From positions 1-64,000 of the IMG/VR virus record IMGVR_UViG_3300006738_000004: DNA of 64,000 bases, one strand, 5' to 3'. Every line of letters begins with the position of its first letter. Position 1 is the first letter of the stretch. This document shows, in pieces, positions 13,095-50,210 of this stretch. Source of the DNA: a virus. The notes beneath the pieces are model-generated. The model made no database searches and was not told the DNA's origin. It worked only from the letters and a program-made list of their open reading frames with translations. Position numbers and translations under genes: made by a program.

Positions 13095-13105
13095 GGAGGT
13101 TTGTA

Positions 13106-15571
13106 ATGGCCGGTAAAGGTAAAAAGACCACAGGGAGACGTAACCGGGGGGAGGTTCGCGGGAAGCTGACGAATCGTCGTAGGAAAAGGCTTGAAGCAGA
13201 AAGCCTGAACTACACCGCAGGGGTACTTCGGAAAGGCTACGTCGTCCTGGTGAATGCCGTGGACATGACGGTGGACATCCAGCTTGTTCAAGGTCCCAAC
13301 AACAAGCCTTACAAAGGCATCCCCATCTCATTCGGAGCGTGCGGCAGCCGTACTTTCATGGGGGTGATGCCAGAGATGAACGACCAGTGTGTGGTGGGGT
13401 TCGCTCCTGCCACCATGGCAAACACTCGGCCCTACATCGTGGCTTGGATTCCCAATGCCCCTCGCATGGGAAGGGATTGGGTTCCTGTTTCCATCCATTC
13501 CCAGGCTGAGGTGGAAAACACTGTTCGTGTCAGGAATCAAGCGGGACCTTACGCCCCCCTGATTCGGAACAAGACACCTCGTTTGAATGAGGGGAATGCT
13601 TTTGTCTCGTCCGGGCAGGGCGCGGATTTGATTCTCGATGAGTCAGCCACCTTGACAAACCGCAGGGGCAACGAGGTGATCCTGCGCGACCAGGACCAAG
13701 CATTGGTTGTCCGTAGCGTGCAGCAGTTCCATGCGGGTTCCGGTTTCCGTATCTACGGAGGCATCGTCCAAAGAGACGCCGAGCTTCTTCCCACCACACT
13801 GTTCAATGCTCACTATTGGTGGGCAGCACCGGGACAAGCTCTCACTACGGATGAGGACGTCAAGCCATCCCAGTTCCCCACGGACTACGCGACCGCAGAC
13901 ACTCTTGCACCTTCGATGCTTTTTCAGCGGCGGTCAGATGGCACCAGGGTTCACCCTGATTACGGCAACACGAGCCTTGGGTTGGACCCATACAAGCTCT
14001 TAGAGCGGGGGTTGTTCATCTCCCCCTCCGGGGTGCTGCTCGGGGGCAAGATCAGCGATGCTGTTTACGGGGGCAAGCCCGTTTACCGAGTGAGCGAGGC
14101 TTTGGGGAATGCTTTTGGAGACTCTGAAGCAGAGACGTTCACAGAATACAGGATCGAAGTAACCCACACTTCTGACGGAACGCTCCCTGTCACGGAAGAA
14201 ACCGATGGGTTTGATGCCGACCGCCTTCCTCTTAGCGGCTCTGCCCGGTTGGCTCCTACTGGAGATGATGATTCCGAGGGGCAGCCCGAGATGGACAATC
14301 CTCCTCCTGTCCCAAGCAACAACGTCCCTTTTGTAGAGATGGTGATGGGGACTTACATCGGCAACGACCCCTTCTATGGCGGGAAGGAGCTTTACGGTCT
14401 GCCCATCTGCCCTCAGCTTGTTGGCAGTGACGGGTCTAAGTCTCCAGGGTTGGTGTCTGGGGTCGGTAAGCCAGTTAGCGAGCACGCTGCTTGGATTGTG
14501 AAAGTCCAGAACCCGGAAGACCCCACCCAACCTCCTTCTTGGATGGCTATCACCAAGGGGGGAGCTTTCCGGCAGTACTTCTCTGGGAAGGGTTCACCTG
14601 GAGGCGTTGCCGTCTATGACAACAGCCAGACCGACATCTATGGGGGTGAGGGGTACACCGTCCAGGCAGGTGGGGGGAATGCCTCAATCGACCTGGAGCA
14701 TACGGACGGTTCAAATCAAGACGGCTACGGGATCACGGCCACTTCGCCCGCTGCCATCCTGCTCCATGCAGGTGCTGCGTCTACCTCCATGGATGCCACG
14801 AACGCCTCTATGGCGGGCGAAGCCGCCTCCATGGTCATCAAGTCAGACACCAACACGAGCGTTGTGAGTGCGGGTGAGGAAAAGCATAGTTGCGCCAAGT
14901 TTACGGTGACGGACTGCGACGTGATGGCACAGTCGATCACCAAGAACTGGAATGTGAACAGCGGTGGCGGCATTGGGTTTAGCGGGGCGACGGGCAAGGA
15001 GATGTGGACCGGGAGTAAAGACATCGCCTACGGGGGGAAGGGGAACAGTGACCCCACCGGGCCTCCCCCCTTGGTGGAGACTTTCAGTGCCAATGCTGCC
15101 ACAGGAATCCTTGGTGCGGCAAAAGTGCGAGAGCAGACCCTCCAGATGGGGGCGTGGGATTGCTCAGGCCCAATGGTGAGGGAGGATCACACCTACAAGG
15201 TCGGCTCCATCAACCTCAAAGGGACAGGCACCGCCGCAATGGCTGCGGGGTTTGGGACAGGGGTGCGAGTCGGATCTGGTGTGGGGTCCCAAGACAACAG
15301 CACCTCCCACAAGCCTACTGGCATCAAGACGGTCGGTTACATCGGAAACGTGACCAGCAAGGCGGTTGCGGGGGGCACCTCGTTGACGAGCACCCTGGCC
15401 GCAACTGTGAAATCTGCGGCCAAGTTTGGTGCCAGCGCCCCTTTGATTCAACTGACGTCACCGGGGGTTTTCGCTGGCGCTGTCTTGTCGGAGGGGTGCA
15501 TCGACAATCTTACCGGATCTTCATTCATCTCCAGCGGTACAGTCGGATACTCGACCTGTCGTATCGGCTAA
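13106..15571 (+). CDS. Baseplate central spike protein (gpV/gp5-like)
   Basis: 821 residues. ATG at 13106, six bases after AGGAGG. The N terminus is very basic (residues 1-35), then residues about 40-115 form an OB-fold-like block with VVLVNAVDMTVDIQLVQG, a CGSRTFMGVMPEMNDQCVV turn and RPYIVAWIP. This matches the OB domain of P2 gpV / T4 gp5 spikes that docks onto the hub. The remainder is Gly/Ser/Thr-rich beta structure, expected to form a trimeric shaft, ending in a Ser/Gly/Thr-rich segment with two Cys. It is far longer than gpV (about 210 residues) and has no recognisable lysozyme domain. Position directly after the hub supports the call. Confidence 0.75.
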   Translation: MAGKGKKTTGRRNRGEVRGKLTNRRRKRLEAESLNYTAGVLRKGYVVLVNAVDMTVDIQLVQGPNNKPYKGIPISFGACGSRTFMGVMPEMNDQCVVGFAPATMANTRPYIVAWIPNAPRMGRDWVPVSIHSQAEVENTVRVRNQAGPYAPLIRNKTPRLNEGNAFVSSGQGADLILDESATLTNRRGNEVILRDQDQALVVRSVQQFHAGSGFRIYGGIVQRDAELLPTTLFNAHYWWAAPGQALTTDEDVKPSQFPTDYATADTLAPSMLFQRRSDGTRVHPDYGNTSLGLDPYKLLERGLFISPSGVLLGGKISDAVYGGKPVYRVSEALGNAFGDSEAETFTEYRIEVTHTSDGTLPVTEETDGFDADRLPLSGSARLAPTGDDDSEGQPEMDNPPPVPSNNVPFVEMVMGTYIGNDPFYGGKELYGLPICPQLVGSDGSKSPGLVSGVGKPVSEHAAWIVKVQNPEDPTQPPSWMAITKGGAFRQYFSGKGSPGGVAVYDNSQTDIYGGEGYTVQAGGGNASIDLEHTDGSNQDGYGITATSPAAILLHAGAASTSMDATNASMAGEAASMVIKSDTNTSVVSAGEEKHSCAKFTVTDCDVMAQSITKNWNVNSGGGIGFSGATGKEMWTGSKDIAYGGKGNSDPTGPPPLVETFSANAATGILGAAKVREQTLQMGAWDCSGPMVREDHTYKVGSINLKGTGTAAMAAGFGTGVRVGSGVGSQDNSTSHKPTGIKTVGYIGNVTSKAVAGGTSLTSTLAATVKSAAKFGASAPLIQLTSPGVFAGAVLSEGCIDNLTGSSFISSGTVGYSTCRIG

Positions 15572-19100: not shown

Positions 19101-22100
19101 CCTCGTTCAGGTTCCTGAGGGTCCTCCTGAAGCAGGCTATTTGCTCCATGTCCTCAATGGGGACGCAGAGGGCATCTACACTGTGGTCTCGGTGGGGACG
19201 GGCGCAAGTGCGAACAAGCTCCTCATATCTCCTGCTTTTCCTGCGGCTGCTGGCCCGGATGAAGGGGAGGCATACGTTCAATGGAAGCTGTACCACGGGT
19301 ACACGCGGGAGGTGTACGACCCTGCGGTAGTTGCTGATGTCGTTCTCGATGTCTTCAACCATCTCCCAGAGGAGCCATTTGAGATCAAGGTCCTGACCTC
19401 GATGGGGACCATTGAGCATCCTTTGGGCTACACCGCTGAGATAGGGAAAGCCCGTGAAAATGATCGTCTGATTTGGCTCCGCTTTGGCTTGGAGGGTGGT
19501 GAGGTAGTGCCTCGCTACCTGGAGACCGGGGAGGAGATAGGCCCCATCGCTGAATCAGGGCTGGTAATCCCGGACCTGACTGACCCGTTCTTCATCAACG
19601 AAGACTTCGCCATCCGTGTGGAAGGGCGAAAGTTCACGACGGACTTTCCCGCAAGCGGGGACGGTTTGCTTGTAGTTACCCCGGCTGCTTTGATTACCCC
19701 CATTCCAGGGGATGGGGTGTTCGTCTGCGGGGCTACGGGAACTGACCCTGGAATCATCCAGTTCGGGGAAGACACCCTGAGCGAGAACGATGGGGCCATG
19801 ATCTACTACGATCAGGTGCTTCCTGCGGTTGCGCCAGCCGGGGAAGCGTTCATTGACCCCACCACAGGTGATGCGGTCATCTCCGCTAATGCGGCCACCG
19901 AGTTTCAGGGCGAAGAGCTTTACTTCGTTGAGCAGATGATCACTGAGAATCGTCTTGATGTTCGGCTTAGCCCGATAGGAGGGTCCCTTTTCTTCCAAGC
20001 CCCGCTTCGGGAATATCAGATTGTGGAGTCTCACTACTTCCAGGCTGATACCGATGGAGACAAGCTCGTTGAGACAGATGACGATGGAGTAGATAGCTTC
20101 GTGGAAGTAACGGAGTTCCTGCCCCTCTATGTCCAGTTGGAGGAGGCCACTCGGGTAGACGACAACACCTTCACGTTCAACCCGACAGGCAGAACGATTG
20201 CCGAAGAAACGGAACCCATGATTTGGGCTGGAGTAGAGCTTCAGAACTACCGGGGGTTCGTGACCGCTACGGTGAGTGGAAGCACCATCACTTTTGAGGA
20301 GGCGGTTGACGAGGACGACGTAGTGAAAATCAACTACGGCGTGTACGAGGCGTTCGGCGGCGAGATGGCCTACGAAGTCTCGAAGAAGCCTGTCTACCGC
20401 CCTCCTTTCATGATTGATTCAGGGGTGAGCGACTTCACTCTCGTCGGGGACCGCACAGATGTGCTTCAGGTAGGGCAGCTTTTCGTCTTGGCTGAGCAGC
20501 CGTTCTACATCCAGGATGTCAGCTACAGCCATAGTACAGAAGAGACAACGGTCACGATTTGGCCTCCCACCGTAACGAAGGTAGGGACGCGCTCCCCTGG
20601 AAACGACGGCGGGGTTCTTATCACCATTGATCCGGTGGCTGTGGTGATTGACCCTGCGGGGGGTGCCATTTCAGGCGGTGGCTACGAGGGGTTCATGATG
20701 ACCCTCCTGCTCCCGGACGGCGTCACTGAAGTCCCCTACTTGGAGGTAGACAAGTTCGCCACTGAGATCATCTTCCAGGGGGACTGGAGGGAGTACATGC
20801 GGGCAGGCCACCTGCTCGAAGTCGGCGGCTACCCGATCATCTTGATTTCTTCGACTCTGTCTGAGGACGGAAGGTACACCATCGCGTCTTTCGGCACACC
20901 CATCCCAAAGAAGATGGTGTACGGCACGGATGGCGTTCGCATTTCCGTGCGCCCCGTGTACGGCCCCCTTCCTTACCAGTTCACAGGCGTGGCCCCTTTC
21001 ATTGAGCGGGAGGACTATGCGTTGTTCTTGCTGGGGTCAGTTGATTCAAGCGGGCAGGAGTTGCCTGGAAAGGTCCTGAGAGAGGGCACCCACTACATGG
21101 CTGACCCGGAAACCGGGGACATCGCCCTCATGCTTCCAGAACAGAAGGCTCTCAAGGGAGGGGAGCGGCTTCTGTTCCAGTACATCCAAGGGAAGGTCAT
21201 CCATCCGATTATCGAAGATGAAGCCATCATCGCCCCTGCTTTCAAGTCAAAGCACCTTGCGATGGCTATCCCCTCAGCGGAAAACGCCATGTTGGGGGCT
21301 ACCTTCCTTGCCAAGTACGTCTTCAGGAACCCTGATTCGTTCTACGCCCAGACCATTCCAGTTGAGGAGTACTTGCCTGAGGTCCAGGAATCGGCTGTGG
21401 AGAAGGTCCAGAACTCGGGACCTTCCACAGGAGGTCCCCCTGAAGCATTCCCCGGTGACCCTGACATCCAGAAGCAGGGGATTCTTGGCCTCCGAGGCGA
21501 AGTGCATGATCTGTACGACCTGGACCGAGGAGGGCGGCTCTATCTTTCCTTCTACAACAACGTGGTTGTTGCCTTCGAGCAGATCCTGGAGAACATCGAC
21601 GGAAGAATCATTGGGGACCGGGACGGCAAGTTCAAGTTCTTCGTTGGGCGCGGGGTTCGGTATGCCTTCCGGGGGTACGAGGACGAGATTACTGGGTTCC
21701 TCAACCCGCGTCTGATTTGGCGGGATTTGATCGAGACCTGGGCCGCAGGACTTGGCGACGGCTACTACACCGAGGAAGACTCCCTTTACTTGCCTCCTAC
21801 TGCGTTTCCCTTTGACCTTACCGGGACTTTGTATCCCAACAAGACTGCTGGGTTACCGCCTGACCCGTTTGGGTTGGGGTTCTTCATGGCGCGGCAGAGG
21901 TTCCGCGTCAAGAACGACATGGACGACATCCTCATGGTTGGGATGAAGGCCGTCTTGTCGGTCAACCTCTTCCCGCCTTTCCCTGCTGTTGAACTCAAGC
22001 CGAAGTTCGAGAAGATGTGGGAGAAGAACCTCTTTTCTCGCCTTTATCCCCAGCGCACGAAAGCCTTTACGCGCTTGCTTCCAGGGCTTGAAGCAAACTC

Positions 22101-38215: not shown

Positions 38216-38449
38216 CTACTTGCTATGGGACACGAACTCGTTGAGGCGCTGGGCCGTCGAGATCACTTCTTCTGTGGTGTAGAAGGTCTTGCGGTCCTGG
38301 GCCTTGTCATCCCGCGCCATGTGCGCGTTGGTTTCAAGGATGGACTGGGCCAGATGCAGCAGGTCGAATCTCATCTCGTAAGGGTTCCGGCGACCACCGA
38401 CGTTAGGATTTTCATTGGCGTGAACGGGCGTGGGGATCTGAGAAGACAT
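38216..38449 (-). CDS. Small conserved-looking phage protein
   Basis: 77 residues. The ATG (complement of 38447-38449) was chosen over an in-frame ATG 63 bases upstream because AGGAGG lies five bases before it. The core NPYEMRFDLLHLAQSILETN is followed by a charged linker and FYTTEEVISTAQRLNEFVSH: two helices separated by a short loop. From memory this NPYE-x-R helix plus 'TTEEV' helix layout recurs as a small orphan in many large lytic phages. I cannot name its function. Twelve bases separate it from the downstream gene. Confidence 0.75.
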   Translation of the reverse strand: MSSQIPTPVHANENPNVGGRRNPYEMRFDLLHLAQSILETNAHMARDDKAQDRKTFYTTEEVISTAQRLNEFVSHSK

Positions 38450-38460
38450 GCTTCCCTCCT

Positions 38461-38479
38461 TGTGTGTGTTGTGTGTGTA
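38461..38479. repeat. TG-rich low-complexity tract
   Basis: An almost pure (TG)n run on the + strand lies immediately upstream of the ribosome site of the 77-residue minus-strand gene. It is noncoding. Confidence 0.85.
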
Positions 38480-38502
38480 TGCCCCGTTAGGGACGCTACA
38501 TC

Positions 38503-38546
38503 TTACCCACACTCCGACGAGTTATTACCCACACTCCGACGAGTTA
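38503..38546. repeat. Perfect 22-bp tandem direct repeat
   Basis: Two identical, abutting 22-bp copies lie at 38503-38524 and 38525-38546. Each starts TTACCCACAC and ends CGACGAGTTA. The right copy includes the stop codon of the HNH gene (complement of 38544-38546), and the left lies in the gap before the next minus-strand gene. It may be an operator pair or a duplication scar at the cassette's internal junction. Confidence 0.95.
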
Positions 38547-38981
38547 GACCCCTTCAAGCCATGACAGGTCTAAAGACCACTGCTCTTGGGAGCGTCGTGC
38601 CCACACCGCAAAACTCTCTTCGACATACTCCAAGGCGTCGTGGGCGTCCCAGCCATTTATCCCCATCAGGTGTTCGATGGCTTTGTCAGCACGGCCTATA
38701 ACCTGGGCACGGCCAATGTGCTTCACCTCATGACAACGAGGACACAGGGCAATCAGCCCCAACAGCTTCTGGGTCTTGGTTTCCTCGTCGTAGTGCCATC
38801 TCTCGTGGCACTCCACGGGCCACTTGGGTCCTTTGCCTCCGCAAATCTCACAGCGGTATTGTGCTGCCTTGTAGGTAGCCTTGCGTAGACGGTCCCATTC
38901 AGCCCTCGGAAGCTCTGACCGAAGGTTGGCTCCCCACTGGCCTTTAGGCACAAGCTCAATCGTGAGGTACGGCTTCTTCAT
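38544..38981 (-). CDS. HNH-family nuclease-like protein
   Basis: 145 residues from the ATG complementary to 38979-38981. A longer in-frame start exists but would lie inside the neighbouring gene, and the N terminus MKKPYLTIELVPKGQW is a natural beginning. Cys44-x2-Cys47 and Cys80-x2-Cys83 form a zinc-ribbon pair. Between them comes VECHER (Cys58, His59), then LIALCPRCHEVKHIG with His84 and His88, matching the His-x-Cys-x2-Cys-His layout of HNH proteins. The C-terminal half is helical. Such proteins cut or nick DNA and are common in phages as homing or packaging-linked nucleases. Which role applies is not clear. The start overlaps the upstream gene by 26 bases. Confidence 0.75.
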   Translation of the reverse strand: MKKPYLTIELVPKGQWGANLRSELPRAEWDRLRKATYKAAQYRCEICGGKGPKWPVECHERWHYDEETKTQKLLGLIALCPRCHEVKHIGRAQVIGRADKAIEHLMGINGWDAHDALEYVEESFAVWARRSQEQWSLDLSWLEGV

Positions 38982-39180
38982 CTTCCCAATCTGCCAACCC
39001 TGCCGCGATAGCGTCTTTACCACCTTGGCGAGCAGCGCGTTCAGCGGTGCGAGCCTCCGCAGCCATAGCACCGCGAGACATATGAGTACCAAACTGACGA
39101 GAATGACCCACTCGACCGCGAGAGCGAGGGATGAAGCGTTTCGATCCGTCCTTCCAAGATTTACATGCTTGCGAAGCCAT
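38956..39180 (-). CDS. Small basic protein, first gene of minus-strand cassette
   Basis: 74 residues; ATG at the complement of 39178-39180 with a strong AGGAGGAGCC ribosome site. The first 35 residues are Lys/Arg/Ser-rich (KSWKDGSKRFIPRSRGRVG); the remainder is Ala/Glu/Arg-rich helix (EARTAERAARQGGKDA) with an acidic end. It overlaps the HNH gene by 26 bases, so the two are probably translated together. A TATAGA hexamer lies just upstream on the minus strand and could be a -10 element, but no convincing -35 was found. It may be nucleic-acid binding. The function is unknown. Confidence 0.65.
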   Translation of the reverse strand: MASQACKSWKDGSKRFIPRSRGRVGHSRQFGTHMSRGAMAAEARTAERAARQGGKDAIAAGLADWEDEEAVPHD

Positions 39181-39293: not shown

Positions 39294-40079
39294 ATGGCGG
39301 CACGAATCCGAAGTTGGCTGAACGCGGACCACGCGACTGACGTGGACGAGCAGAGCCGTGACGACCTCTCTTTTGCAGGGGCGGGTGACAACGTCTACGT
39401 CAGTTCCATCGACGCAGCTTCCACCTATGCGTGGACCATTGTGTTCGCCCCTGAGGGGTCTGGCGCTACGTTTTCGCTTAGCTCAGCCGACCCTTCTCCA
39501 GGGTTCTTCAACTGCGATGAGCCAGGGGCATACCTGATTCGGCTGGTCGTGGATGCAGGCCAGCCAACCGAGAGCACCCAGTACGTCAGGCTTCGTGCTT
39601 TGACTACGGTGGCCGCCCTGAAACTCGTCGCCGCAGGCGAGCGCCGTGACACCTCTGGAATCATTCCGGTCGATGTCGATGTCGAGGGCTGGGCCAATGA
39701 GCAGAACTACAACCTCACCCAGCTTGAGCAACTGATTCCGATAGGAACCGTTGAATCCGTTGCGAGCACATTCCAGTGGAACTCGGCCTCCCCGGTACAG
39801 GTCACAAACCTCATCGCTGCGGATGCTGTCTTGGAGCTTTGGCTGAAGTTCGACACCGCATTTCTGGATGCTGCTTCCACGGTTTCAGTGGGCACCGATT
39901 TGGACCTCGAAAAGTACCTCCCCATCGTGGATGTCGATGTCACCAACACGGTCTACACGCTGGCCTACTCTCCAGGGGATGTTCTTACGGCAAATCAATC
40001 TCTCCAGGTGAGCGTCATCCCTGGAGGCGCGGAGACACAAGGCTCCGGGACACTCCTGGCCTTGATCCGTCGAGGATAG
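39294..40079 (+). CDS. Fibre-type protein with PKD-like and C-terminal beta domain
   Basis: 261 residues from ATG 39294 (GGAG eight bases upstream); the TTG immediately before it is also in frame. Residues about 40-105 form a PKD/Ig-like domain (STYAWTIVF, PGAYLIRLVVDAGQPTE), followed by LVAAGERRD and the linker VDVEGWANEQNYNL. The same domain and linker begin the gene at 40873. The last 110 residues are a beta-sandwich that ends GSGTLLALIRRG and resembles the ends of the next fibre genes. It is the first gene after the minus-strand cassette. Role as a small receptor-contact or collar protein is inferred from architecture. Confidence 0.65.
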   Translation: MAARIRSWLNADHATDVDEQSRDDLSFAGAGDNVYVSSIDAASTYAWTIVFAPEGSGATFSLSSADPSPGFFNCDEPGAYLIRLVVDAGQPTESTQYVRLRALTTVAALKLVAAGERRDTSGIIPVDVDVEGWANEQNYNLTQLEQLIPIGTVESVASTFQWNSASPVQVTNLIAADAVLELWLKFDTAFLDAASTVSVGTDLDLEKYLPIVDVDVTNTVYTLAYSPGDVLTANQSLQVSVIPGGAETQGSGTLLALIRRG

Positions 40080-40082
40080 TTC

Positions 40083-40101
40083 CGGTGGGTTCTCTATTGC
40101 C
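40083..40101 (+). promoter_or_regulatory. Candidate shared intergenic motif, copy 3 (weak)
   Basis: CGGTGGGTTCTCTATTGCC keeps the CGGTG and CTATTGCC ends of the two other copies with a diverged centre. It lies directly after the 39294 gene and upstream of 40169. Confidence 0.25.
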
Positions 40102-40114
40102 GACATAGATTGAC

Positions 40115-40129
40115 GAGGCAGACTGCCTC
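40115..40129 (+). other. Small hairpin before fibre gene 40169
   Basis: GAGGCA and TGCCTC form a perfect 6-bp stem with a three-base loop. A CTTTT run follows ten bases later, too far for a standard intrinsic terminator. It could be a weak attenuator. Confidence 0.3.
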
Positions 40130-40168
40130 AGCGGAGCTTTTGATCACAACCCCGCAAGGAGCACTCTC

Positions 40169-40741
40169 ATGTCTGTCGTTCGTAAACTTCTCGGTACTAT
40201 TGAAGACCGGTTCTGGCTCTTCCAGGACTCCACCGCAAACCTTCTTGGCGTCTACGCCGTGAACCCCGACGGCGATCACATCGAGTTCAGGGATGCCAAC
40301 AACGTCTTCATTCGGCTGTCGGGCGCTGATGGCGTCGATCCTGAAGACTACGCCACCATGAACCAGATTGGCGGCGGTGGCGGTGGCGGTTCGGCCTTGG
40401 AGTGGATCAGTGTCCCTATCGCCTTTGGTGATGTGGGAGGGACGCCACCCGTAAGCATCGCAACGGTCCCTGATGGCGCAATGGTCCTCGATGTCCGCGT
40501 CAATGTTACTGCTGCTTGGGATGTTGATTCGACCGTCACAGCGGAGCTTACCGGGCAGACACCCTTCCTCGCTGCCTCCGACAGCCAGTTGGACGACATC
40601 CCAAGGGATTACTTGTTGTCTCTCGTCAGTGCGAACGGTACCGGTGGGCCTCTCACCATCACTTGCACCGTGGCTTCGGGAGGGACCCCGACTACTGGTG
40701 CTGGCACTGTCCTTGTTGGCTACGCGACTCCCGCCCTCTGA
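40169..40741 (+). CDS. Short fibre/adhesin protein with polyglycine hinge
   Basis: 190 residues; ATG preceded by AAGGAG with an eight-base spacer. The N-terminal 65 residues (VRKLLGTIEDRFWLFQDSTA, then IEFRDANNVFIRLSG) look like an attachment part with short beta strands. A run of seven Gly at about residues 68-74 acts as a hinge. The last 110 residues form the beta-sandwich beginning LEWISVPIAF, with PDGAMVLDVRVNV in the middle and GTVLVGYATPAL at the end, as in other fibres of this array. Attachment part - Gly hinge - lectin-like head is the layout of short receptor-binding fibres. The receptor is unknown. Confidence 0.65.
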   Translation: MSVVRKLLGTIEDRFWLFQDSTANLLGVYAVNPDGDHIEFRDANNVFIRLSGADGVDPEDYATMNQIGGGGGGGSALEWISVPIAFGDVGGTPPVSIATVPDGAMVLDVRVNVTAAWDVDSTVTAELTGQTPFLAASDSQLDDIPRDYLLSLVSANGTGGPLTITCTVASGGTPTTGAGTVLVGYATPAL

Positions 40742-40784
40742 TTCGGGACCGCTTTTCCCATAACGGGGTGATCCAATGAGGTGA

Positions 40785-40843
40785 CCATGAACGCACTATT
40801 TTCAGAATCCGGGACCTTTCCTGATTCCGTAGTGCGCTCATGG
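40785..40843. other. Extended intergenic stem-loop
   Basis: The arms CCATGAACGCACTA (40785-40798) and TAGTGCGCTCATGG (40830-40843) pair over 14 positions with one mismatch. An inner GAATC/GATTC stem closes a 13-base loop after a small internal loop. The whole lies in the 131-bp gap between 40741 and 40873. There is no T-run after the stem, so this is more likely an RNA regulatory or processing structure, or a protein-binding palindrome, than a terminator. Confidence 0.55.
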
Positions 40844-40872
40844 CCCTCGTGGTTCGCCGCTGAGGTGCCTTG

Positions 40873-43695
40873 ATGGCTGTCGCAATCATCGAGGCAACAA
40901 TCACCCGACCTTCGGGTGGCCCCCCAGGTCCGTTTACCGGGGTTAGTAGCGACGACATCTGGGTAAACGACACCGTTGCGTGTCACTCGGCGTCCACGGG
41001 CACGACCCCTTCGACCACTTATGCGTGGTCCATCGCCTACCAGCCTGACGGGTCCACGGCCTCGTTCAGCGGGGACGTTACGACTGACCATCCGGGTGAT
41101 TTCCTCGTCACCCACGGCGGCCCGTATCTGGTTCGGCTTGTCCTGGATGCAGGACTCCCGACGGAGAACGAGCAGTTCATCCGGCTTCGGGTCAAGGTCA
41201 CTCTTGATTCAGAGAGCCTGTTGCTGGTGGCAGCAGGAGAGCAATACGGTGGCGCTGCTACACCCATCCCGGTAGACATCGACCCGATTGGATGGACGAA
41301 CGAGCAGAACAACAACCTGCTCGCACTCCTCGAACTCATCAAGCCTTCCTATGCGGCGGGCAACGTCGTGTATGTCGATGCCAATGGGGGCGGCGACTAC
41401 TCCACTATCCAGGCAGCTATCAACTACGCGGTGGGCGAAGGGCCTACGGCAGTGGCTCCGTGGATTGTTCTCGTCCGTCCCGCTACTTACGACGAGAGCC
41501 TGATCTTCCAGCCTCATGTCCATGTCTATGGCTGGCCCGGTTCCGACCGGATGTGGTCCCCCTCGAACGGAAACCTTGTTCGGATACGAAACACCAACGC
41601 TTCGGGAAGCGTGCTCGCAACGACGGCAAGCACGCAACGCATCTCGATTGCCAACCTCCACTTCCTTCAACAGCACACCGACACGTTCCCTGCTCTGAAT
41701 GTCCAAGGGGCAGGTGGCCTTTCTGCGTACCGCTGCCTGTTTGATGTCCAGGGAGTTGCTGCCGTACAGGGGCCTGGGCTTCTCAGTGAGGGGGGTGGCT
41801 TCACTGAGCTTATCGAGTGCTCCTTGCGCCTCAACACCGCTGCGGGGAATGGAAGAGCGAGCGTTATCGCTAACTCCAGCTTGGTCACCCTCGACCAGTG
41901 CCTTGTCCAAGGACCCTCTGGGGCGATTCTTTCAGGGGCGAACAGTGTCCTGACACTCCGTGACACCCAGATGGTGCTGAGCGGGGACTTCGGCGTCCAG
42001 ATCGAGGAGGTGGGCCAAGCGGACCTCTTCTACACGCAGATCGAAGGGGCTACGGAGTCCATCGTCGTGAATGACGCTGGGACAGGAGGGGGTGACCCTG
42101 CAACGGTCACTGCTCGATGGTCACGCCTGGACGCGGGGGTGCGCTTCCGCACCTTGAACATCACCTCCAATACGACTTTCACGCTGGGGTCCACAGAACA
42201 TGGAGCCATCACCTTCCCAGACGGTGCCCCTACGTTCTTTGCGGCAACCACCCCTTCTGACAGCATCCTCTACGACCCCAACCTCGCACCGACCGCTCCT
42301 GACATCACCGCCACGAATGTCCAAGATGCCCTGGACCAAATCTTCACCTACGCCAGTCAGGTCAGGACACTGGACGATGCCTACGACGGCGGCCTGGGAG
42401 CAGGAGGTGTTGGGCGCACCATCACTGCGGATGCCGGGGCTGTTCAAATCACGGACGCTCCTGCGCCGTCACTCATTCCTCCTCCCAACAACCCTCAGGG
42501 CAAGCTCCAGGTGGTTGGCGCGGTGGAAATCGGAGGCGTGGACAAGCCCGAGATAGACCTCGACCCCAATGCTTTCGGAGTAGGCGCAGACATTTCCCTT
42601 GGCTGGCAGATTTGGCCGGATCAGGCGCTTTACGGGTCCACGGCCTTCCTACGCGGATCTTCCATTGGTGACCCTCACTGGAGGAACTACAACCTCTACC
42701 TGGGTACCAGCCCTTCTGACGGTGGTGGTCTTGGCGTTGCTCAGGGCCGCATCGGGAAGGTGGTGGTCGCTGGTGGGCAGGGCCTGGAACGAGGCAAGGT
42801 CGCCGCGCCTCACGCTGGTGATGTCTATGTGCTCGGTGGGGATACTTCGGAGCCTGTTGAAGTCACTGATGGCGGTTCGATCTTCCTTGGCCCAGGCGGC
42901 TCCATCACAGGAACTCCTGGATCTATCTTTTTGGGGCGGCCTGAATCAGCAACCGCAGCAACTCTTACAGCATTCCAGGCAGCCACTGACCCCTTGACCG
43001 TCAATGGGGAGTTCACGTTTGGCACTGAAGCAGGCGGCATCACGGTTACTTTTGTAGGCGGGGACACCCTCGGGGCGGTCCTTGGCAAGTTCAACTCCAC
43101 AGGTCGTGTTGTAGCTACTGAAGCAGCCGGGGTCATTACCCTCACCACGACATCAAAGGGTCCCATCACGGACCTCTTCTGGATTAGCTCCGATGGCGGC
43201 AGTGGTGCGGGCATCGACTTGGAACTGGGTAGGTTCTCAACCGAGAGTGCCGTTGGTGGTGCCTGGGTTGACCATATGGAAATCCGGGTCACGGACCACA
43301 ACGAGATCACTTTCGGGCCGCTCCCTGGTCCCGCCATAGGCCCGATGATCTACAACGCGGATACCGGGAAGCTCACTGTTCCGGGACTTATCGACCCCAC
43401 AGGCATCGTTTTTGACGATGCCCCCATCCCGCCCACAGGTGGGGCAAAAGGGGCGATTTTTGTCGCGGACGGCCTCAATCCTCTCGCTCCCATCAGAAAC
43501 AACCCCTATTACGTTGATGAGAACCAGATCGTTACCGATCTTTTAGGGGGTGGTCCCGGTGGTTTGCCTGTTCCCGATGATGAGGGACAGATCCTTTACG
43601 CCGCTACGTCAGCAGCATTCATCAAAGCGACTCCCGTAGTCGATGCCGATGGGTATTTATTGACCAATAGCGACGGGCACATGGTGGTGACATGA
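40873..43695 (+). CDS. Tail fibre/adhesin with PKD-like, beta-helix and hook-like domains
   Basis: 940 residues from ATG 40873. Residues about 45-160 repeat the PKD-like domain of the 39294 protein (TTYAWSIAYQPDG, LVLDAGLPTENEQFIRLR, LLVAAGEQ, GWTNEQNNNL). Residues about 164-450 begin YVDANGGGDYSTIQAAINYA and continue as a pectate-lyase-type right-handed beta-helix, the fold of many polysaccharide-binding or -cleaving tailspikes. A TATNVQDALDQIF linker follows near 470. Residues about 695-780 form a small hook-like module. No catalytic triad was identified. It overlaps the next gene by four bases (ATGA), indicating coupled translation. Confidence 0.75.
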   Translation: MAVAIIEATITRPSGGPPGPFTGVSSDDIWVNDTVACHSASTGTTPSTTYAWSIAYQPDGSTASFSGDVTTDHPGDFLVTHGGPYLVRLVLDAGLPTENEQFIRLRVKVTLDSESLLLVAAGEQYGGAATPIPVDIDPIGWTNEQNNNLLALLELIKPSYAAGNVVYVDANGGGDYSTIQAAINYAVGEGPTAVAPWIVLVRPATYDESLIFQPHVHVYGWPGSDRMWSPSNGNLVRIRNTNASGSVLATTASTQRISIANLHFLQQHTDTFPALNVQGAGGLSAYRCLFDVQGVAAVQGPGLLSEGGGFTELIECSLRLNTAAGNGRASVIANSSLVTLDQCLVQGPSGAILSGANSVLTLRDTQMVLSGDFGVQIEEVGQADLFYTQIEGATESIVVNDAGTGGGDPATVTARWSRLDAGVRFRTLNITSNTTFTLGSTEHGAITFPDGAPTFFAATTPSDSILYDPNLAPTAPDITATNVQDALDQIFTYASQVRTLDDAYDGGLGAGGVGRTITADAGAVQITDAPAPSLIPPPNNPQGKLQVVGAVEIGGVDKPEIDLDPNAFGVGADISLGWQIWPDQALYGSTAFLRGSSIGDPHWRNYNLYLGTSPSDGGGLGVAQGRIGKVVVAGGQGLERGKVAAPHAGDVYVLGGDTSEPVEVTDGGSIFLGPGGSITGTPGSIFLGRPESATAATLTAFQAATDPLTVNGEFTFGTEAGGITVTFVGGDTLGAVLGKFNSTGRVVATEAAGVITLTTTSKGPITDLFWISSDGGSGAGIDLELGRFSTESAVGGAWVDHMEIRVTDHNEITFGPLPGPAIGPMIYNADTGKLTVPGLIDPTGIVFDDAPIPPTGGAKGAIFVADGLNPLAPIRNNPYYVDENQIVTDLLGGGPGGLPVPDDEGQILYAATSAAFIKATPVVDADGYLLTNSDGHMVVT

Positions 43696-46600
43696 GCGCA
43701 TTTCACGGCGAACAAACTTCAGCACAAGGCATCCACACCCTGACGGCGTGGGAGCATGTTGACATAGCGGCTCGAAACGCCGGGACCTACGCCGCAGGCG
43801 ATGTAGGAAAGGTCTCGCGGGTTGGCACGGGCGTTGGCCCCTTCACCTTCTACATCTTGAAGGATGCCGGTGGCCCCATCACTGATGCGAACTGGGATGA
43901 CGTAGGCACCAGCACTGGAAGCACGGTGGCCCCCCTCACGGGACGCCTCTATGTAGACAGGACTTATGCTGGCCCCGCAGCTTCTGACGGATCGATTGCC
44001 GCTCCTTTCACCACCATCCAGGACGCTGTCAATGCGTGCAACCTGGGAGGCGCAGCTACCCCTGCGGAAGAAGAAGCGCAGTCGTGGCTTGTCGTTATCG
44101 CAGGCGGCTACTACGACGAAGCTCTCGCCCTCCCGGAGAAGCGGTCGATCTGGCTGAAAGGTGGTGCGGGCGTCTACCTTTCAGACGGCATCTCAAATCA
44201 ACCCGTCACCATTCCTGGTACGGTTCTCCCTTCCTCGAACGCGCCCTACACCTACACGTTCGAGAACATCATCTTTTCGGACACGGTAACGGTCACCTCT
44301 GGGGTTGCTCTTACCTACCACCTTTCGTTCCGTAGTTGCGTCTTCTTTGATCCTGCGGGAACTGCCGTTGGACCTGCGGTGGACGGCACAGGATGGGCCG
44401 GAGGCAGTGCCCTTCGCGTTTACGCGGAGAAGTCGGTTCTTCGCGCCTTTGACGGAAACTACGCCATTCAGTTGGTCGGGGACACCCAGAATACTGCCGT
44501 TGGAATGGACGAGTGCCAGCTTGAGGGCGGCATTACTTGCGCTGGATATGGGCGCATGAGGTCGTGTCAGTTCGGAAACGGGCCGTCTGGGACATGCGAC
44601 TTCGACTTCAACGCAGCGGGTATCGGGCTGACCGCAGTCACTCTTTCCAATGTTGAGCGGCCTGTTGGAGTCTTTGACTCGCAGTTTGCGGGGTCCACCC
44701 AGTTCAACGATGCCTCGGCAAACCCTAACACCAACCTCTATGTAGACAACGTCTCTGACAAGTCTTTCAGCGATGCCGGTGGCACTTTCGGTGCCAACAC
44801 CAATGCTACCCACCCCCTCTGGAATGCTTCAGCAGGAGGACCTCCCACTGGAGCAGCAGGTGGGGACCTGGGCAGTAACTACCCCAATCCGGCAGTCACG
44901 GCTGTGCATAGCGGGGCCAACCAACTCGCCATCGCCAATGGTTTGGCTGGTGATGAAGTCTTGGTTGTCAATGGTGCAGGTACGTCCATTACAGGATCTG
45001 CGCTCACAAACTTCGGAGACTTGTCCGGCCCAGCAGGGGCTGCGGATACAGCCCTGGCTGTCTTTGATAGCACTACGGGCAAGCTCATCAAGGATGTAGC
45101 GACTACCACCCTTGAGGACACCACAGGTCCAAAGTTGAAGCTCGCTGCGGCTGCGACAGCGGGGCACAACGCACAAATCATCCTGGATGCCGGAACCCTC
45201 GCGGATAAGTCTCAAATCACTCTGTTGCGTGGCGGTGTGACCGATTGGGTGTTCGGCGTGACCGCCTCTGACGAGTTCCACTGGGCAGACGCTTCCGGCA
45301 CTGTAAGGCTGAAGCTGGACCAGACCGGGGCCTTGACGTTCAACGAGGCGTACACCTTCCCCACAACAGACGGTGGGGTCGCTGGCGAGGTTCTGACCAC
45401 AGATGGTGGTGGAACAGTCACTTGGGCTGCCCCTGCTGGAGGCGGCACGGTCACCTCAACCGCAGCGACCACAGTGGCAACACAGCTTGCCTTGATGACC
45501 ACGGACACCAACATCTATAACGCCCCTGAAGCCACCCTTGTAGGCGGGGATTTCGCTCTTGATGCGTCTTCGCTCGGGGTGGGCCATACGGCATCTCTCA
45601 CGCTGAAGTCTGGCCACTCCACCGATCCCTCCATCCTTATGTTTGAGGATGCGTCTACTGCCCGGTGGGCGGTAGAGACCATCAATCCTGCCACGTCAGG
45701 CAATCTTCGATTCAAAGAACTGGGCACTAACCTCACTGTTATGTCTGTTTCGACCACGGGTGCCCTTACCCTTGGAGACCATGCAGGCGGGCATGAGTTC
45801 ACCCTCCCCGATGCTGACGGAACTATAAATCAAGTTCTCCAGACTAATGGTGCAGGTGCCGTTTCTTGGGGTTCTGTCGCCGGTGGTGGAACAGTCACCT
45901 CCTCAGCGGCGGGGACAACGGCAACTCAGCTTGCCGTGATGGCGTCCGACACGGACATCTACAACGCCCCGGAAGTCACCCTTGTGGAAGCGGGGCTTGC
46001 CCTTGATGCGTCCGCGCTGGGCGTGAACCATGACGCTTCCGTAACCCTGGCATCCGGGACCACTGCTGACGATGCAGTCATCAACTTCAAGCAGGCGAGT
46101 ACTGCCAAGTTCACTGTGGGAATCACTGATGTAGCCACCACCCCAGTCGGGGAGCTTCTGTTCTGGAGCGGGGTTGGAACGCAGTTGATGTCGCTGTCTG
46201 ATACCGCTCACCTGACGATTGCCCCAGGGGTCAACCAGTACACCCTTCCCTCTGCCCGTGGAGCAGCCCTCGAAGTTCTCCAGACTGACGCCGTGGGAAA
46301 TGTGTCCTGGGCAGCCGTGGCTGGAACTGGGGACGTATCAGGTCCAGGTGCGGCAGTTGTAGATGATGCCCTGGTTCGCTGGGACACCACTACCGGGACT
46401 TTGGTCAAGGACAGTTACGCCGTCTTGACGGATGCCCAGCTTACTCTGACTGGCGTTGCTGCCGCAGACGCCGCATCACTGACCCTTACGGCTGGAACCA
46501 CGGCAGACGCCACCCTGAACATAGACGCAGGGTCTGCCACAAACCGTGGAACGATTGCCTTCAAGCAGGCAGGCACCGACGTGATGAGCCTCGGCGTGGC

Positions 46601-47933
46601 AGCCAGTGCCACGTCGCTTGGCCTCTTGGACTCTGGGTCGGTTCAGAGGTTCGCCTTCAGCCAAACGGGTGTTCTCACGATCAACCCCGCAGCCGCCGAT
46701 TTCTTCGCCTTCCCCAGTGGCGATGGTGCTGCATCCCAAGTTCTCCAGACTGATGGTGCAGGTGCTGTCACTTGGGCCACGATTGCTGGAACCGGGGATG
46801 TTGTAGGCCCTGCGGGCGCTACAGACACGGCCTTGGCCCGTTTTGATACCAATACCGGCAAGTTGCTTCAGAACAGCGAGGCCACTCTCACCGACCTTGC
46901 CACTGACAACAAGGTGGTCTTGACCTTGGATGGTGGCGGTGCGGGAGACGCTGGCTTGACTCTCACTACGGGGGCCACACCGGGGCACGACGCTACTGTT
47001 ACTTTGGATCACGGTGGGGCCGCAGCCGATACAGCACTCCTCAAGTTCCAGAGCAACAGCACTCTCTTGTGCCAACTCGGCCTCCTTGGAGACGGCGTTA
47101 CCGCTCTTCCTGGAATCACACTCCAGGACGACGCAGGCAACACCAACCTGACAGTCACCTATGAGGCAGGTGCTCCCGTAGCAGGCTTGCACACCACGGT
47201 GGCGACGGTTGATGCGTCCGGGTATGTCGGTGGCAGCATCGCCTCACTTGTCGTGGACGGCGGCCCGGCGGGTGGTCCGGGCTTGGAGACGCACGCTACC
47301 TTGGAGTTCAAGCAAGCAGGGGTAGCAGGCTTCCACTTCTTGAGCCGCATGGGCGGGATGCACACGACCCCCACGCTCATGCTCAGGAGCGGGTTTGGCG
47401 ACGACGTACTACAACTGGATGCGACCGCAGCGGGTGCGCCTACCATCTGCATCAACGGGTCTGACCTTGGGGGTGACCATTGGTTCCTTCCTACGGTGGA
47501 TGGAACTGCCGGACAGGTTCTGACCACAGACGGCACCCACAATGCTGGGGGTGCCGCTTGGGCAACCCCGGCAGGCTCCAACGTCGAAATCCTGAAGGCT
47601 GATTTCTCCTACGCTGATCATGGAGGGACAGTCACAGTCATCCCTGACCTTGCGGAAGGGGATGTCGTTCTTCAGGTCTGGGTACGGTACACCATTGCTT
47701 TCAACAACGGAGTTGACCAAGTCGAAGTCGGGAACACCGGCTCGGTAGATGCGTACTTCGGGATGTCCGACACTGCCCCACACCACACCGCCTCAGGTTT
47801 CAGTACGGAGCCTGTGGACTTGGTGACGGTAGGTCCTTCCCCCGCCGATGTGATCGTTACCATCACCCCAGGCATTGGACTACCATCAACAACCGGTACT
47901 GGTTTCGTTTGTGTCCTGGTCCACAGAGCGTAG
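43692..47933 (+). CDS. Long tail fibre with internal repeats
   Basis: 1413 residues. Residues about 84-350 are a second beta-helix (LYVDRTYAGPAASDG, PFTTIQDAVNACN). From about residue 440 the protein is repetitive. GD-V/L-x-GP-x-A-x2-D-x-AL-x-R/V-F/W-D-x-x-TGK-L motifs occur three times and L-x-TD/TNG-x-G-x-V-x-W motifs five times (nt 45387, 45831, 46272, 46737, 47514). These two motifs are hallmarks of phage fibre shafts. Units of about 150 residues alternate a Gly/Ala-rich beta part and an FPxxDG turn. The last 110 residues are a beta-sandwich ending TGTGFVCVLVHRA, like other genes of the array. It is a trimeric shaft with a receptor-binding tip by inference. Confidence 0.85.
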   Translation: MSAFHGEQTSAQGIHTLTAWEHVDIAARNAGTYAAGDVGKVSRVGTGVGPFTFYILKDAGGPITDANWDDVGTSTGSTVAPLTGRLYVDRTYAGPAASDGSIAAPFTTIQDAVNACNLGGAATPAEEEAQSWLVVIAGGYYDEALALPEKRSIWLKGGAGVYLSDGISNQPVTIPGTVLPSSNAPYTYTFENIIFSDTVTVTSGVALTYHLSFRSCVFFDPAGTAVGPAVDGTGWAGGSALRVYAEKSVLRAFDGNYAIQLVGDTQNTAVGMDECQLEGGITCAGYGRMRSCQFGNGPSGTCDFDFNAAGIGLTAVTLSNVERPVGVFDSQFAGSTQFNDASANPNTNLYVDNVSDKSFSDAGGTFGANTNATHPLWNASAGGPPTGAAGGDLGSNYPNPAVTAVHSGANQLAIANGLAGDEVLVVNGAGTSITGSALTNFGDLSGPAGAADTALAVFDSTTGKLIKDVATTTLEDTTGPKLKLAAAATAGHNAQIILDAGTLADKSQITLLRGGVTDWVFGVTASDEFHWADASGTVRLKLDQTGALTFNEAYTFPTTDGGVAGEVLTTDGGGTVTWAAPAGGGTVTSTAATTVATQLALMTTDTNIYNAPEATLVGGDFALDASSLGVGHTASLTLKSGHSTDPSILMFEDASTARWAVETINPATSGNLRFKELGTNLTVMSVSTTGALTLGDHAGGHEFTLPDADGTINQVLQTNGAGAVSWGSVAGGGTVTSSAAGTTATQLAVMASDTDIYNAPEVTLVEAGLALDASALGVNHDASVTLASGTTADDAVINFKQASTAKFTVGITDVATTPVGELLFWSGVGTQLMSLSDTAHLTIAPGVNQYTLPSARGAALEVLQTDAVGNVSWAAVAGTGDVSGPGAAVVDDALVRWDTTTGTLVKDSYAVLTDAQLTLTGVAAADAASLTLTAGTTADATLNIDAGSATNRGTIAFKQAGTDVMSLGVAASATSLGLLDSGSVQRFAFSQTGVLTINPAAADFFAFPSGDGAASQVLQTDGAGAVTWATIAGTGDVVGPAGATDTALARFDTNTGKLLQNSEATLTDLATDNKVVLTLDGGGAGDAGLTLTTGATPGHDATVTLDHGGAAADTALLKFQSNSTLLCQLGLLGDGVTALPGITLQDDAGNTNLTVTYEAGAPVAGLHTTVATVDASGYVGGSIASLVVDGGPAGGPGLETHATLEFKQAGVAGFHFLSRMGGMHTTPTLMLRSGFGDDVLQLDATAAGAPTICINGSDLGGDHWFLPTVDGTAGQVLTTDGTHNAGGAAWATPAGSNVEILKADFSYADHGGTVTVIPDLAEGDVVLQVWVRYTIAFNNGVDQVEVGNTGSVDAYFGMSDTAPHHTASGFSTEPVDLVTVGPSPADVIVTITPGIGLPSTTGTGFVCVLVHRA
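45387..47560 (+). repeat. In-frame diverged repeats in the fibre gene
   Basis: Five copies of a motif starting Q/E-VL-[QT]-T[DN] begin at 45387, 45831, 46272, 46737 and 47514. Spacings of 444, 441, 465 and 777 bases are all multiples of three. The two most similar copies share the bases CAAGTTCTCCAGACT at 45831 and 46737. The repeats probably arose by duplication of a shaft unit of about 148 residues. Confidence 0.85.
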
Positions 47934-47941
47934 AGGTAGTC

Positions 47942-48634
47942 ATGGCATACAAAAAGATTGATGGCATCATCGACACCAAGCTCAAGGTGATGAAGACCAC
48001 GGGTCTTAGCGGTGATGTTTGGGCCGACGATGGCAACTATTTCCAAAATGATGAGACCGGAGGCTTCTCCGTTAGGACGGGCGCAGCCAATGCCTTGCAG
48101 GTTCTGCAAGTTGCAGACCCTGCCGCTACTACGGACTCAGCCACCAAGGACTATGTGGACACCAACGCTGGCTCGGTGGCTACCACTGAGCAGGTTGTCA
48201 CCATCGAGTTCGACTACAATGATTTCAATGCCCAGGTGCCATTTTCTACGACGGGGTTCCAATACGCGGTGATGCAAGCAACCTTCACGCTTCCAGACGG
48301 GGCTTATGTCACTGGTTGTGGGGTTTGGATTGATCCAACCAGTCCGTGGTCCAACACGGCTGAGTGCATTGTCGGTGATGCCACTACCCCGGTTCCTGCT
48401 GGGCCTCCCCCGGCCCAGGCAGGGAACGTCATGCCGGACAGGTGGATGCTCAAGACCAACAACAATGCTTCTGCGGGAGGAAAGGTCTTCTGGCAGCCTA
48501 ACTGGGACCTTCTCAACGACAATGTAGCCAAGACCATCTTCGTGTGTATCGGTGAGACCCAGGTCGCTGATCCAGGGATCACGGTCGGCAAATGTCAGGT
48601 CTTTCTCAAGTACGTCGAAGCTCCGAGGACATAA
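47942..48634 (+). CDS. Short fibre protein with adapter region and C-terminal beta domain
   Basis: 230 residues from ATG 47942 (GAGGTAGTC just before); an upstream in-frame ATG at 47909 would overlap the end of the previous gene without a ribosome site. The N-terminal 95 residues include VLQVADPAATTDSATKDYVD, the D-x2-TKDYVD linker seen in many tail fibres. The rest is a beta-rich head (VVTIEFDYNDF, LPDGAYVTGCGVWID, FVCIGETQVAD) of the type found in the neighbouring genes. It is a likely receptor-binding or cap subunit. Confidence 0.7.
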   Translation: MAYKKIDGIIDTKLKVMKTTGLSGDVWADDGNYFQNDETGGFSVRTGAANALQVLQVADPAATTDSATKDYVDTNAGSVATTEQVVTIEFDYNDFNAQVPFSTTGFQYAVMQATFTLPDGAYVTGCGVWIDPTSPWSNTAECIVGDATTPVPAGPPPAQAGNVMPDRWMLKTNNNASAGGKVFWQPNWDLLNDNVAKTIFVCIGETQVADPGITVGKCQVFLKYVEAPRT

Positions 48635-48637
48635 CCA

Positions 48638-49444
48638 ATGCCAACTGCAAAAGTCGTAAACGCCATAGAAGAACTCAGAGTCGCTGACCGGATCGTCCTG
48701 AACCATTATCCTAACGGGACCTACGACCCGTTTGAGCTTCTTCAAGATAACAACGGGAATGTTCGTTGCCAGAGAAGGGACACCGAGCACCTCGTACCCA
48801 TCCTCTTTGGGGAGGATTCGGGAGAGGCGGATAGCGGAGTCACTCGGGGCACTTTCGACACCTTGGCAGCCACTGTCACCACACACGGCACCGACATCGG
48901 GGTCAACGCTACTGACATCACCACGAATCAGGGCAACATCACCACGAACACTGGGAACATCACCACGAATAGCACTGACATCGGTGATAACGGCACCGAC
49001 ATCACCACGAACACGGCTGACATCAGTACCCTCAACAGCGCCGTCAGCGCACTGGGTGCCCAGAACGATGCCCAAGTATTGTGGTTGAAGCAGACCAACA
49101 TAGACTTCGCAACGGCTGGCTCGACTCCGATCACCATCGGGCTTCCCACTAACGCGAGGGTGTTTGATGTGAAGTTTGTCTTCGACGGGACTGATGCCCA
49201 AAGGACCCCGCAGACACCGCCTACTCTTACCGTGGAGTTCACCAACGGGGCAGCCGCCACTGTCCTGGACTGGACGAGCGCGGCCATGGTCATGATTCCA
49301 GAATACGTTTTCACTATCCCTCAGTACACAGAGAATGATGGTGGGGCCGGGTCGAACATTCAGGTGACCACAAGCCAAACTACGTTCAACACTCTCCCGG
49401 CGTTTACTATTTTGGTCGGCATCATCAAAGACCCACTTACTTGA
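48638..49444 (+). CDS. Short fibre with TDITTN-type coiled coil
   Basis: 268 residues. A 65-residue N-terminal part (MPTAKVVNAIEELRVADRIV) is followed at about residues 75-140 by repeats of the type TDITTN, GNITTN, TDIGDN, ADISTLNSAVSAL. These repeats, with hydrophobic residues at regular spacing, are typical of trimeric coiled-coil necks in fibres. The last 115 residues are the beta-sandwich head (LWLKQTNIDFATAG, LPTNARVFDVKFVFDG) shared with 40169 and 39294. It starts three bases after the previous stop. Confidence 0.7.
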   Translation: MPTAKVVNAIEELRVADRIVLNHYPNGTYDPFELLQDNNGNVRCQRRDTEHLVPILFGEDSGEADSGVTRGTFDTLAATVTTHGTDIGVNATDITTNQGNITTNTGNITTNSTDIGDNGTDITTNTADISTLNSAVSALGAQNDAQVLWLKQTNIDFATAGSTPITIGLPTNARVFDVKFVFDGTDAQRTPQTPPTLTVEFTNGAAATVLDWTSAAMVMIPEYVFTIPQYTENDGGAGSNIQVTTSQTTFNTLPAFTILVGIIKDPLT

Positions 49445-49457
49445 TTAGAGGTGACAT

Positions 49458-50210
49458 ATGGGATGCGAATCTCCACAGTTAGACGCGGTCATCATCCGAG
49501 ACACGATTTCTTGGAGGCTTGATCCTTCCGGCGATCCGATGCCAAGCCTCTACCAAATCGAGGGGCAGGGCCAACCTGCGATACACCTCAGTGCTGATGC
49601 GTCTGGGAACCAGCGGTGGCTCATCACGGACAGCAAGGGCCTGAGCGGGAACTCCACCGCAGAGCTTGCACCCGGTGACATTGCCCAGGTTGCGGCAAGG
49701 GATCACTTTTTTTTACTCAACAACGCCACAGCGGCCCAGGAGTTGAAAGACACTCTCCAGTTCGACACCACGAGTACTGGTGCCAAGATGATCGCCAATA
49801 CGTTTACGTCCACGAACACCTGGGCGACCGTCACCATCACCATCCCTTTCTTGTGCGCCTTCGACAACCTGAAGGCCACGCTGCAATCAGGGCAGGGGAT
49901 GTCTTTTGGGAGGGTGTACTTGGGGGTCAAGGACATCGCAAATGCACCTTCGTTTGGTATCAAGCTGATAGATTGCAAGGGGACGGCCCACGCTGGCCCC
50001 ACCATTTCCAACTTCTCGGTGAACGATAAGTTGGAAGCCTTCAACCTTTCGTTCACCGATTTCTTCGGTGCGGGCAACATCTCTACTGCTTCCATGCTGA
50101 AAAGGGAGACGGCCAACATCGTGGTCGAGATCAACATGCCGAGTGCCGAGTTGGTCGCCTACGTTGGAACAGCTTTGGTAGGAACCAATCCACGCGCTCT
50201 TGTGCCCTGA
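49458..50210 (+). CDS. Fibre-array structural protein
   Basis: 250 residues; ATG at 49458 after GAGGTGACAT. Residues 1-100 form a beta-rich part with the segment HLSADASGNQRWLITDS, and residues 100-250 form a second beta domain (NTWATVTITIPFLCAFDNL, VNDKLEAFNLSFTDFF, VVEINMPSAELVAYVG). No repeats or coiled coil are visible. It sits at the end of the run of short fibres, nineteen bases before the next large gene. A fibre head or connector is likely, but no specific family is recognised. Confidence 0.65.
   Translation: MGCESPQLDAVIIRDTISWRLDPSGDPMPSLYQIEGQGQPAIHLSADASGNQRWLITDSKGLSGNSTAELAPGDIAQVAARDHFFLLNNATAAQELKDTLQFDTTSTGAKMIANTFTSTNTWATVTITIPFLCAFDNLKATLQSGQGMSFGRVYLGVKDIANAPSFGIKLIDCKGTAHAGPTISNFSVNDKLEAFNLSFTDFFGAGNISTASMLKRETANIVVEINMPSAELVAYVGTALVGTNPRALVP

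Follow-up and report, generated by a model that had tools for sequence, protein, structure and literature searches.

A predicted C-terminal head module shared by five proteins of a probable variable tail-fibre locus in a contractile-tailed phage

The window analysed here is a stretch of 64,000 nucleotides (positions 1 to 64,000 of IMG/VR record IMGVR_UViG_3300006738_000004) from a 100,935-base virus record, whose source is a contractile-tailed phage (myophage). It holds the open reading frames (ORFs) of a run of fibre genes on the + strand, which we call P1 to P8 after their starts at 39294, 40169, 40873, 43692, 47942, 48638, 49458 and 50230. Profile comparisons indicate that the last 110-150 residues of P1, P2, P4, P5 and P6 form one family, the module studied here. 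We consider it likely that this is a variable tail-fibre locus, where several stalks received copies of one small adhesin tip that is probably trimeric. Baseplate genes upstream (31601-36451) place the locus in the tail region, and the position just past the baseplate genes is the usual place of tail-fibre genes.

Relatedness of the C-terminal heads

A first-pass annotation of this DNA had proposed that P1, P2, P4, P5, P6 and, less clearly, P7 carry a common C-terminal beta-sandwich on different stalks. Pairwise comparison of hidden Markov models (HMMs) bore this out for five of the six proteins once the families had been enlarged, and gave no signal for P7. In the first round of hhalign comparisons, with one to four sequences per family, P1-P4 reached 98.7%, P4-P2 37.9% and P2-P6 60.6%, and most of the remaining pairs were null. 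Scores were judged against 182 decoy segments, which came from unrelated parts of these phages' protein sets and of which half were reversed, and against column shuffles (100, later 150). In an early round with 100 shuffles each and the 182 decoys, the links of P2 with P1/P4 and of P6 with P2 were supported, P5 was marginal and P7 was negative. Against eight P2-type heads P5 then scored 93-95%, and P6 scored 82%/80% against the P2-type profile over ~110 columns; none of the 182 decoys and none of the 150 shuffles did as well in either comparison. An 18-row profile raised P6 to 86%/89%, again over ~110 columns and with 0 of 182 decoys as high. The score of P7 (0.1%) was equalled or exceeded by 69 of the 182 decoys and 45 of the 150 shuffles, and two other head types taken from relatives failed the same comparison. 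P7 is thus placed outside the module family by these tests.

Searches in which the target had been left out of the profile provided support for four of the heads. P1 matched the P4 ortholog of a relative (L003) by blastp, with 29% identity over 117 residues and an expectation value (E) of 3e-7. A profile built from eight P1-type heads only found the window P4 at E 1e-15, the window P2 at 4.5e-4 and the L003 ortholog of P2 at 4e-6. The P2-type profile found the L003 ortholog of P5 at 1e-7 and the window P5 at 0.0027, the best reversed ORF among 5,506 standing at 0.26; larger mixed profiles weakened the window P5 to 0.075-0.1. P6 is the weakest member, and its placement is argued from profile-profile comparison and a structure model. 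It entered alignments A3 and A5 on hhalign alone, so matches of P6 to profiles made from A3 or A5 arise by construction and carry no weight. We conclude that the heads share ancestry: sequence shows it for four of them, and for P6 profile comparison and the structure model do.

Alignment A5 puts the other heads of the window phage at only 11-29% to that of P1, and the two features described in the first-pass annotation, a P-x-[GN]-A-x-V strand and a TG/GTG turn, can indeed be seen in it. The module-bearing proteins range from 190 to 1413 residues and have separate N-terminal parts, and the modules end the ORFs. A search with the A3 profile found no further copy in the 100,935-base record. Scans with the P5 and P6 alignments returned the L003 group again and nothing else, and no relative was confirmed when P6 served as the single query. 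In tblastn searches of 50,697 phage records there was no match for P1, P2, the L003 P4 head, the L011 head, the L041 P2-type head or the L060 P1-type head; the L003 ortholog of P5 hit four records at E 0.1-0.7, covering its first 58 residues only.

A gene pair with two head types, and exchange at both protein ends

Searching contigs with the N-terminal part of P1 recovered 79 loci (L027-L105), including previously unseen copies of the module, on IMG/VR contigs reaching 618 kb. The survey thus comprised 80 sources, the window and L027-L105, of which 11 hold the module. Ten of these sources are free of cuts at contig ends, and in all 10 a P1-anchor protein bearing the module is followed directly by a module-only protein of P2 size. 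Several of the 10 are near copies: L028, L029 and L031 represent a single sequence, and L027 is closely related to the window. In L032, L041, L046 and L060 the next gene after the pair is P8; in the window P3-P7 lie in between.

A tree of 20 heads, which takes in P6 and leaves out P5, separates P1-type heads plus P4 from P2-type heads plus P6 with support of 95/96. By this split the two head types are old. The P4 head falls inside type 1, and P6 joins type 2 on a branch of 2.25, a grouping that may be a long-branch effect; the tree thus supports the duplication of a head proposed in the first-pass annotation. P5 is type-2-like in its head, by profile search, and also in its stalk, which resembles that of a 40169-type protein of L011 (blastp, residues 36-130, E 5e-6), a likeness that had been overlooked. 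The P5 orthologs themselves carry different stalks, of the TKDYVD type in the window (47942-48178) and of the GHVLTSDASGNAVW type in L003 (18754-18873), which would be a further sign of stalk exchange.

The anchor at the N-terminus of P1 is likewise found on other proteins. It is common to P3, which the first-pass annotation had missed: the window P1 and the L003 ortholog of P3 are 43% identical, and the relationship is seen also in alignment A4. Among 66 complete, distinct P1-anchor proteins, eight end in this module and 58 in other C-terminal parts, which we sorted roughly into groups of 14, 11, 10 and 23, the last being 'other'. The sorting is rough in that we seeded each of the other head classes, B, C and D, from five sequences, and the count sets aside ORFs cut at contig ends, the fragment loci L106 and L107-L117, and duplicates by their last 40 residues. 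Sequence comparison therefore points to shuffling at both protein ends, with heads on several stalks and the anchor on several head types. One alternative head (YRGWV...DMNTL...SDNAxFxGSxIYI) recurs on 14 of the 66 anchors and is commoner than the module studied here; examples are L015 4759-5631, L036 5830-6786, L041 5998-6798, L046 2718-3560 and L054 6001-6816.

Comparison with the closest relative, L002, localised one exchange. P1 (96.6%), P3 (92.3%) and the Baseplate_J gene (90.3%) are nearly identical between the two phages, whereas P2 is only 39% identical, and the DNA alignment breaks inside P2, at window positions 40234-40713. By these alignments P2 is replaced in L002. A swap between near-identical neighbours is the pattern that would be expected from host-range selection, here read from one genome pair. 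For these large uncultured phages P2 stands out as the gene that probably sets host range. Against the more distant L003, the P1 head has changed more than the anchor (71% and 87% identity, respectively).

Predicted fold and possible role of the module

The head of P1, modelled from 20 family sequences, was predicted confidently as a sandwich of seven strands, with a predicted local distance difference test (pLDDT) of 91.5 and a predicted template modelling score (pTM) of 0.84. Its closest neighbours by VIA-align were the capsid cement proteins of KHP30 (Z 12.8), Pam1 (12.0), KHP40 (11.1) and GP4 (9.9), followed by residues 117-226 of a chain of the R4C baseplate complex (8gtc_T, Z 9.8 over 106 residues); the rows after R4C start at 8.3 and fall. 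Foldseek also listed Pam1 (E 1.9e-6), KHP30 (E 2.3e-5) and KHP40 (E 7.5e-4). The sequence profile of the module, in which two of 20 rows are P6, found Pam1 in the PDB at E 1.2e-5; the P5 alignment found nothing there by sequence. The P6 head model has the same leading neighbours by VIA-align, with KHP30 at 10.1, KHP40 at 9.3, Pam1 at 8.8, a nodavirus protruding domain at 8.8 and GP4 at 8.6, and R4C at 7.0. Four cement proteins are therefore within its first five neighbours, with a small lead over other sandwiches; when Foldseek was run with the P6 head, nothing matched at <=0.001 and the first 50 rows included none of the cement proteins. The models of P1 and P6 thus agree with the common fold proposed in the first-pass annotation, and the module is predicted to be a beta-sandwich of ~115 residues.

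The cement proteins of KHP30/KHP40, Pam1 and GP4 (PDB 7dn2, 7dou, 7eel, 8h89) are alike in fold over the whole module. They differ in that the fold makes up an entire small capsid protein, whereas the present module forms the C-terminus of longer proteins whose genes lie past baseplate genes. Cement proteins of GP4, KHP30 and Pam1 are described as trimers on capsids and as capsid stabilisers (PMC9698820). In the tail fibre of the marine siphophage R4C the foot (PDB 8gtc chain T) is, as here, the C-terminal module of a baseplate fibre, although R4C has one fibre type and the window has five module-bearing proteins with other stalks. The R4C fibre is trimeric, and its foot, residues 118-230, is described by the authors as lectin-like and capable of carbohydrate binding (PMC10276861). 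Two traits of R4C-type tail fibres are seen here, the fold at the C-terminal tip and a gene adjoining baseplate genes. Because the R4C foot is lectin-like and the cement proteins are trimeric, we interpret the module as a trimeric tip of small size and the locus as an adhesin set, for which receptor binding is likely.

Family libraries supplied no functional name. Pfam contained no family at E <=1 for P1-P8, and the module rows reach no E <0.07; NCBIfam gave a single match for P1-P7, at 0.059 and far under its cut-off. The closest entry was phrog_4042 (129 residues, no function attached), matched by 12 of 20 module sequences at E <=0.1, the best at 3e-11; among window heads P4 matched it at 0.0033 and P1 at 0.046, and those of P2 and P6 had no match. 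In spikes of the Ackermannviridae the N-terminal parts are common and the enzymatic C-terminal parts differ; here the C-terminal tip is common and the stalks differ. The branched complexes of that family are described as modular, with several receptor-binding proteins per virion (PMC11414711), and in both respects they resemble the present locus. A modular build is familiar among phage adhesins. It is less usual that five stalks of a single phage bear the same tip, that the two head types form an old pair, and that the module is tied to cement proteins. The locus is ordinary in kind and unusual in copy number.

If the locus is a variable tail-fibre locus with a copied adhesin tip, the module would sit at the C-terminal tip of five fibres and, by analogy with its structural neighbours, would probably act as a trimer. 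Each fibre would be held by its N-terminal part, on the baseplate or on a further fibre, and contact with the host surface, most likely with sugars there, would fall to the tips. The gene pair would be the older unit, made up of P1 (anchor and type-1 head) and P2 (short stalk and type-2 head). Both head types would have been copied onto further stalks in this lineage, P4 from type 1 and P5 and P6 being closest to type 2, with the copied-head genes lying between the P1/P2 pair and P8. The trimer state, the place on the virion and receptor binding are what we infer; a receptor-binding head, as the first-pass annotation had it, is plausible from the position of the genes, the fold and the replacement of P2.

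Several observations weigh against this reading. The best structural neighbours of the models are capsid cement proteins, not receptor-binding proteins. P6 was missed by leave-out hmmsearch (no match, or E 3.6), and its head model, made from its own sequence and the L003 ortholog only, is of moderate quality (pLDDT 70.5, pTM 0.61). Furthermore, in the comparison with L003 P4, P5 and P6 differ roughly as much in their stalks as in their heads, so rapid change is not limited to the tips. The loss of P6 in that search, together with the mostly null results when P5 and P6 were first compared pair by pair, could mean that only P1, P2 and P4 are related and that the likeness of P5 and P6 is convergence of beta-sandwich sequence patterns. 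We regard this as very improbable: no decoy (0/182) or column shuffle (0/150) reached the score of P5 or P6 in a comparison that P7 and two other head types failed, a P5 ortholog was found at 1e-7, and the P6 model shares its leading neighbours with the P1 model.

That the closest folds are capsid cement proteins raises a different question, namely whether the module docks on the phage head as a cement-like decoration with the N-terminal part pointing outward. Docking by the module would predict a conserved module, but it is the N-terminal half of P1 that is conserved and the C-terminal part that is exchanged; moreover, the genes lie directly past the baseplate genes, and the R4C tail-fibre foot also has the fold, so we give capsid decoration little credence. 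A role on the fibre other than host contact has somewhat more to recommend it. The same module on five different stalks, and related structures that are trimers whose fold serves assembly, would suit a trimerisation or folding knob that registers and caps each fibre, with host recognition elsewhere, for example in the long bodies of P3/P4 or in P8. Such a knob is nevertheless unlikely given that the P1 anchor is found with several unrelated C-terminal parts, that the heads within one phage are strongly unlike, and that P2, the gene swapped in the closest relative, consists of hardly anything beyond a short stalk with its head. An adhesin tip copied onto several stalks remains our preferred explanation.

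Organisation of the locus and its wider meaning

The baseplate genes upstream of the fibre genes are a sheath-initiator/wedge-like gene (Pfam Sheath_initiator 3.2e-5, under the curated cut-off; PHROG baseplate 7e-9) and a Baseplate_J gene (Baseplate_J 1.8e-20). Coordinates of the features are collected in the table.

Table. Features of the fibre locus and upstream baseplate genes in the window.
Feature	Coordinates	Strand	Description
P1	39294..40079	+	anchor domain 39294-39737 and type-1 head ~39735-40076
P2	40169..40741	+	short stalk, polyGly hinge, type-2 head ~40394-40738
P3	40873..43695	+	P1-like anchor at N-terminus to ~41334, then long body; module absent
P4	43692..47933	+	long fibre rich in repeats, type-1 head terminal
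P4 head module	47574..47930	+	
P5	47942..48634	+	TKDYVD stalk, divergent type-2-like head ~48179-48631
P6	48638..49444	+	TDITTN coiled-coil-like stalk, divergent head ~49058-49441
P7	49458..50210	+	neighbour gene without the module
P8	50230..56067	+	large conserved protein, closes the fibre cassette in relatives
Upstream baseplate genes	31601..36451	+	sheath-initiator/wedge-like 31601-32971; Baseplate_J 32978-36451

Between the baseplate and fibre genes, an ORF at 36393-37799 would overlap the end of the Baseplate_J ORF by <=59 bases (window 36393-36451) if it starts at its GTG. Just before P1 the + strand tail genes are broken by three ORFs on the minus strand (37790-39092), one of which is HNH-like by eye (CEICGG...CPRCHEVKHIG), with no Pfam match; versions of it stand at the equivalent place in L002 and L003. 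In L008, on the same contig as L013, long simple tandem repeats flank the fibre locus (7072-9430 and 19319-20188), and their ORFs read TARYTASSTA... and HGTVHG.... The P8 homologue of L018 is split into two overlapping ORFs (9956-11182 and 11089-15435), by a frameshift or a sequencing error. A distant relative, the 485-kb uncultured phage record LR745208.1, matches part of the giant gene at 16177 at 31% and P8 at 32.5%.

We also put forward, tentatively and as a possibility we doubt more than we favour, a fuller account of the pair. A group of large phages would form its surface for host contact from one small cement-like trimer module, maintained as two ancient partner types. The P1 and P2 partner genes would have stayed side by side across lineages, and their heads would have been transferred together, by copying, to further stalks. 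The two types would act together, for example in a mixed complex or in two-step recognition, and P2 would be the fast-exchanged specificity element.

A profile of the anchor serves to locate adhesin genes, here in 77 loci, and the models give a predicted structural identity to proteins that the libraries tried had left without an assigned function. Capsid cement proteins and tail-fibre tips are thereby linked through one predicted fold, which here would recur at the C-terminal ends of five proteins of a single phage.

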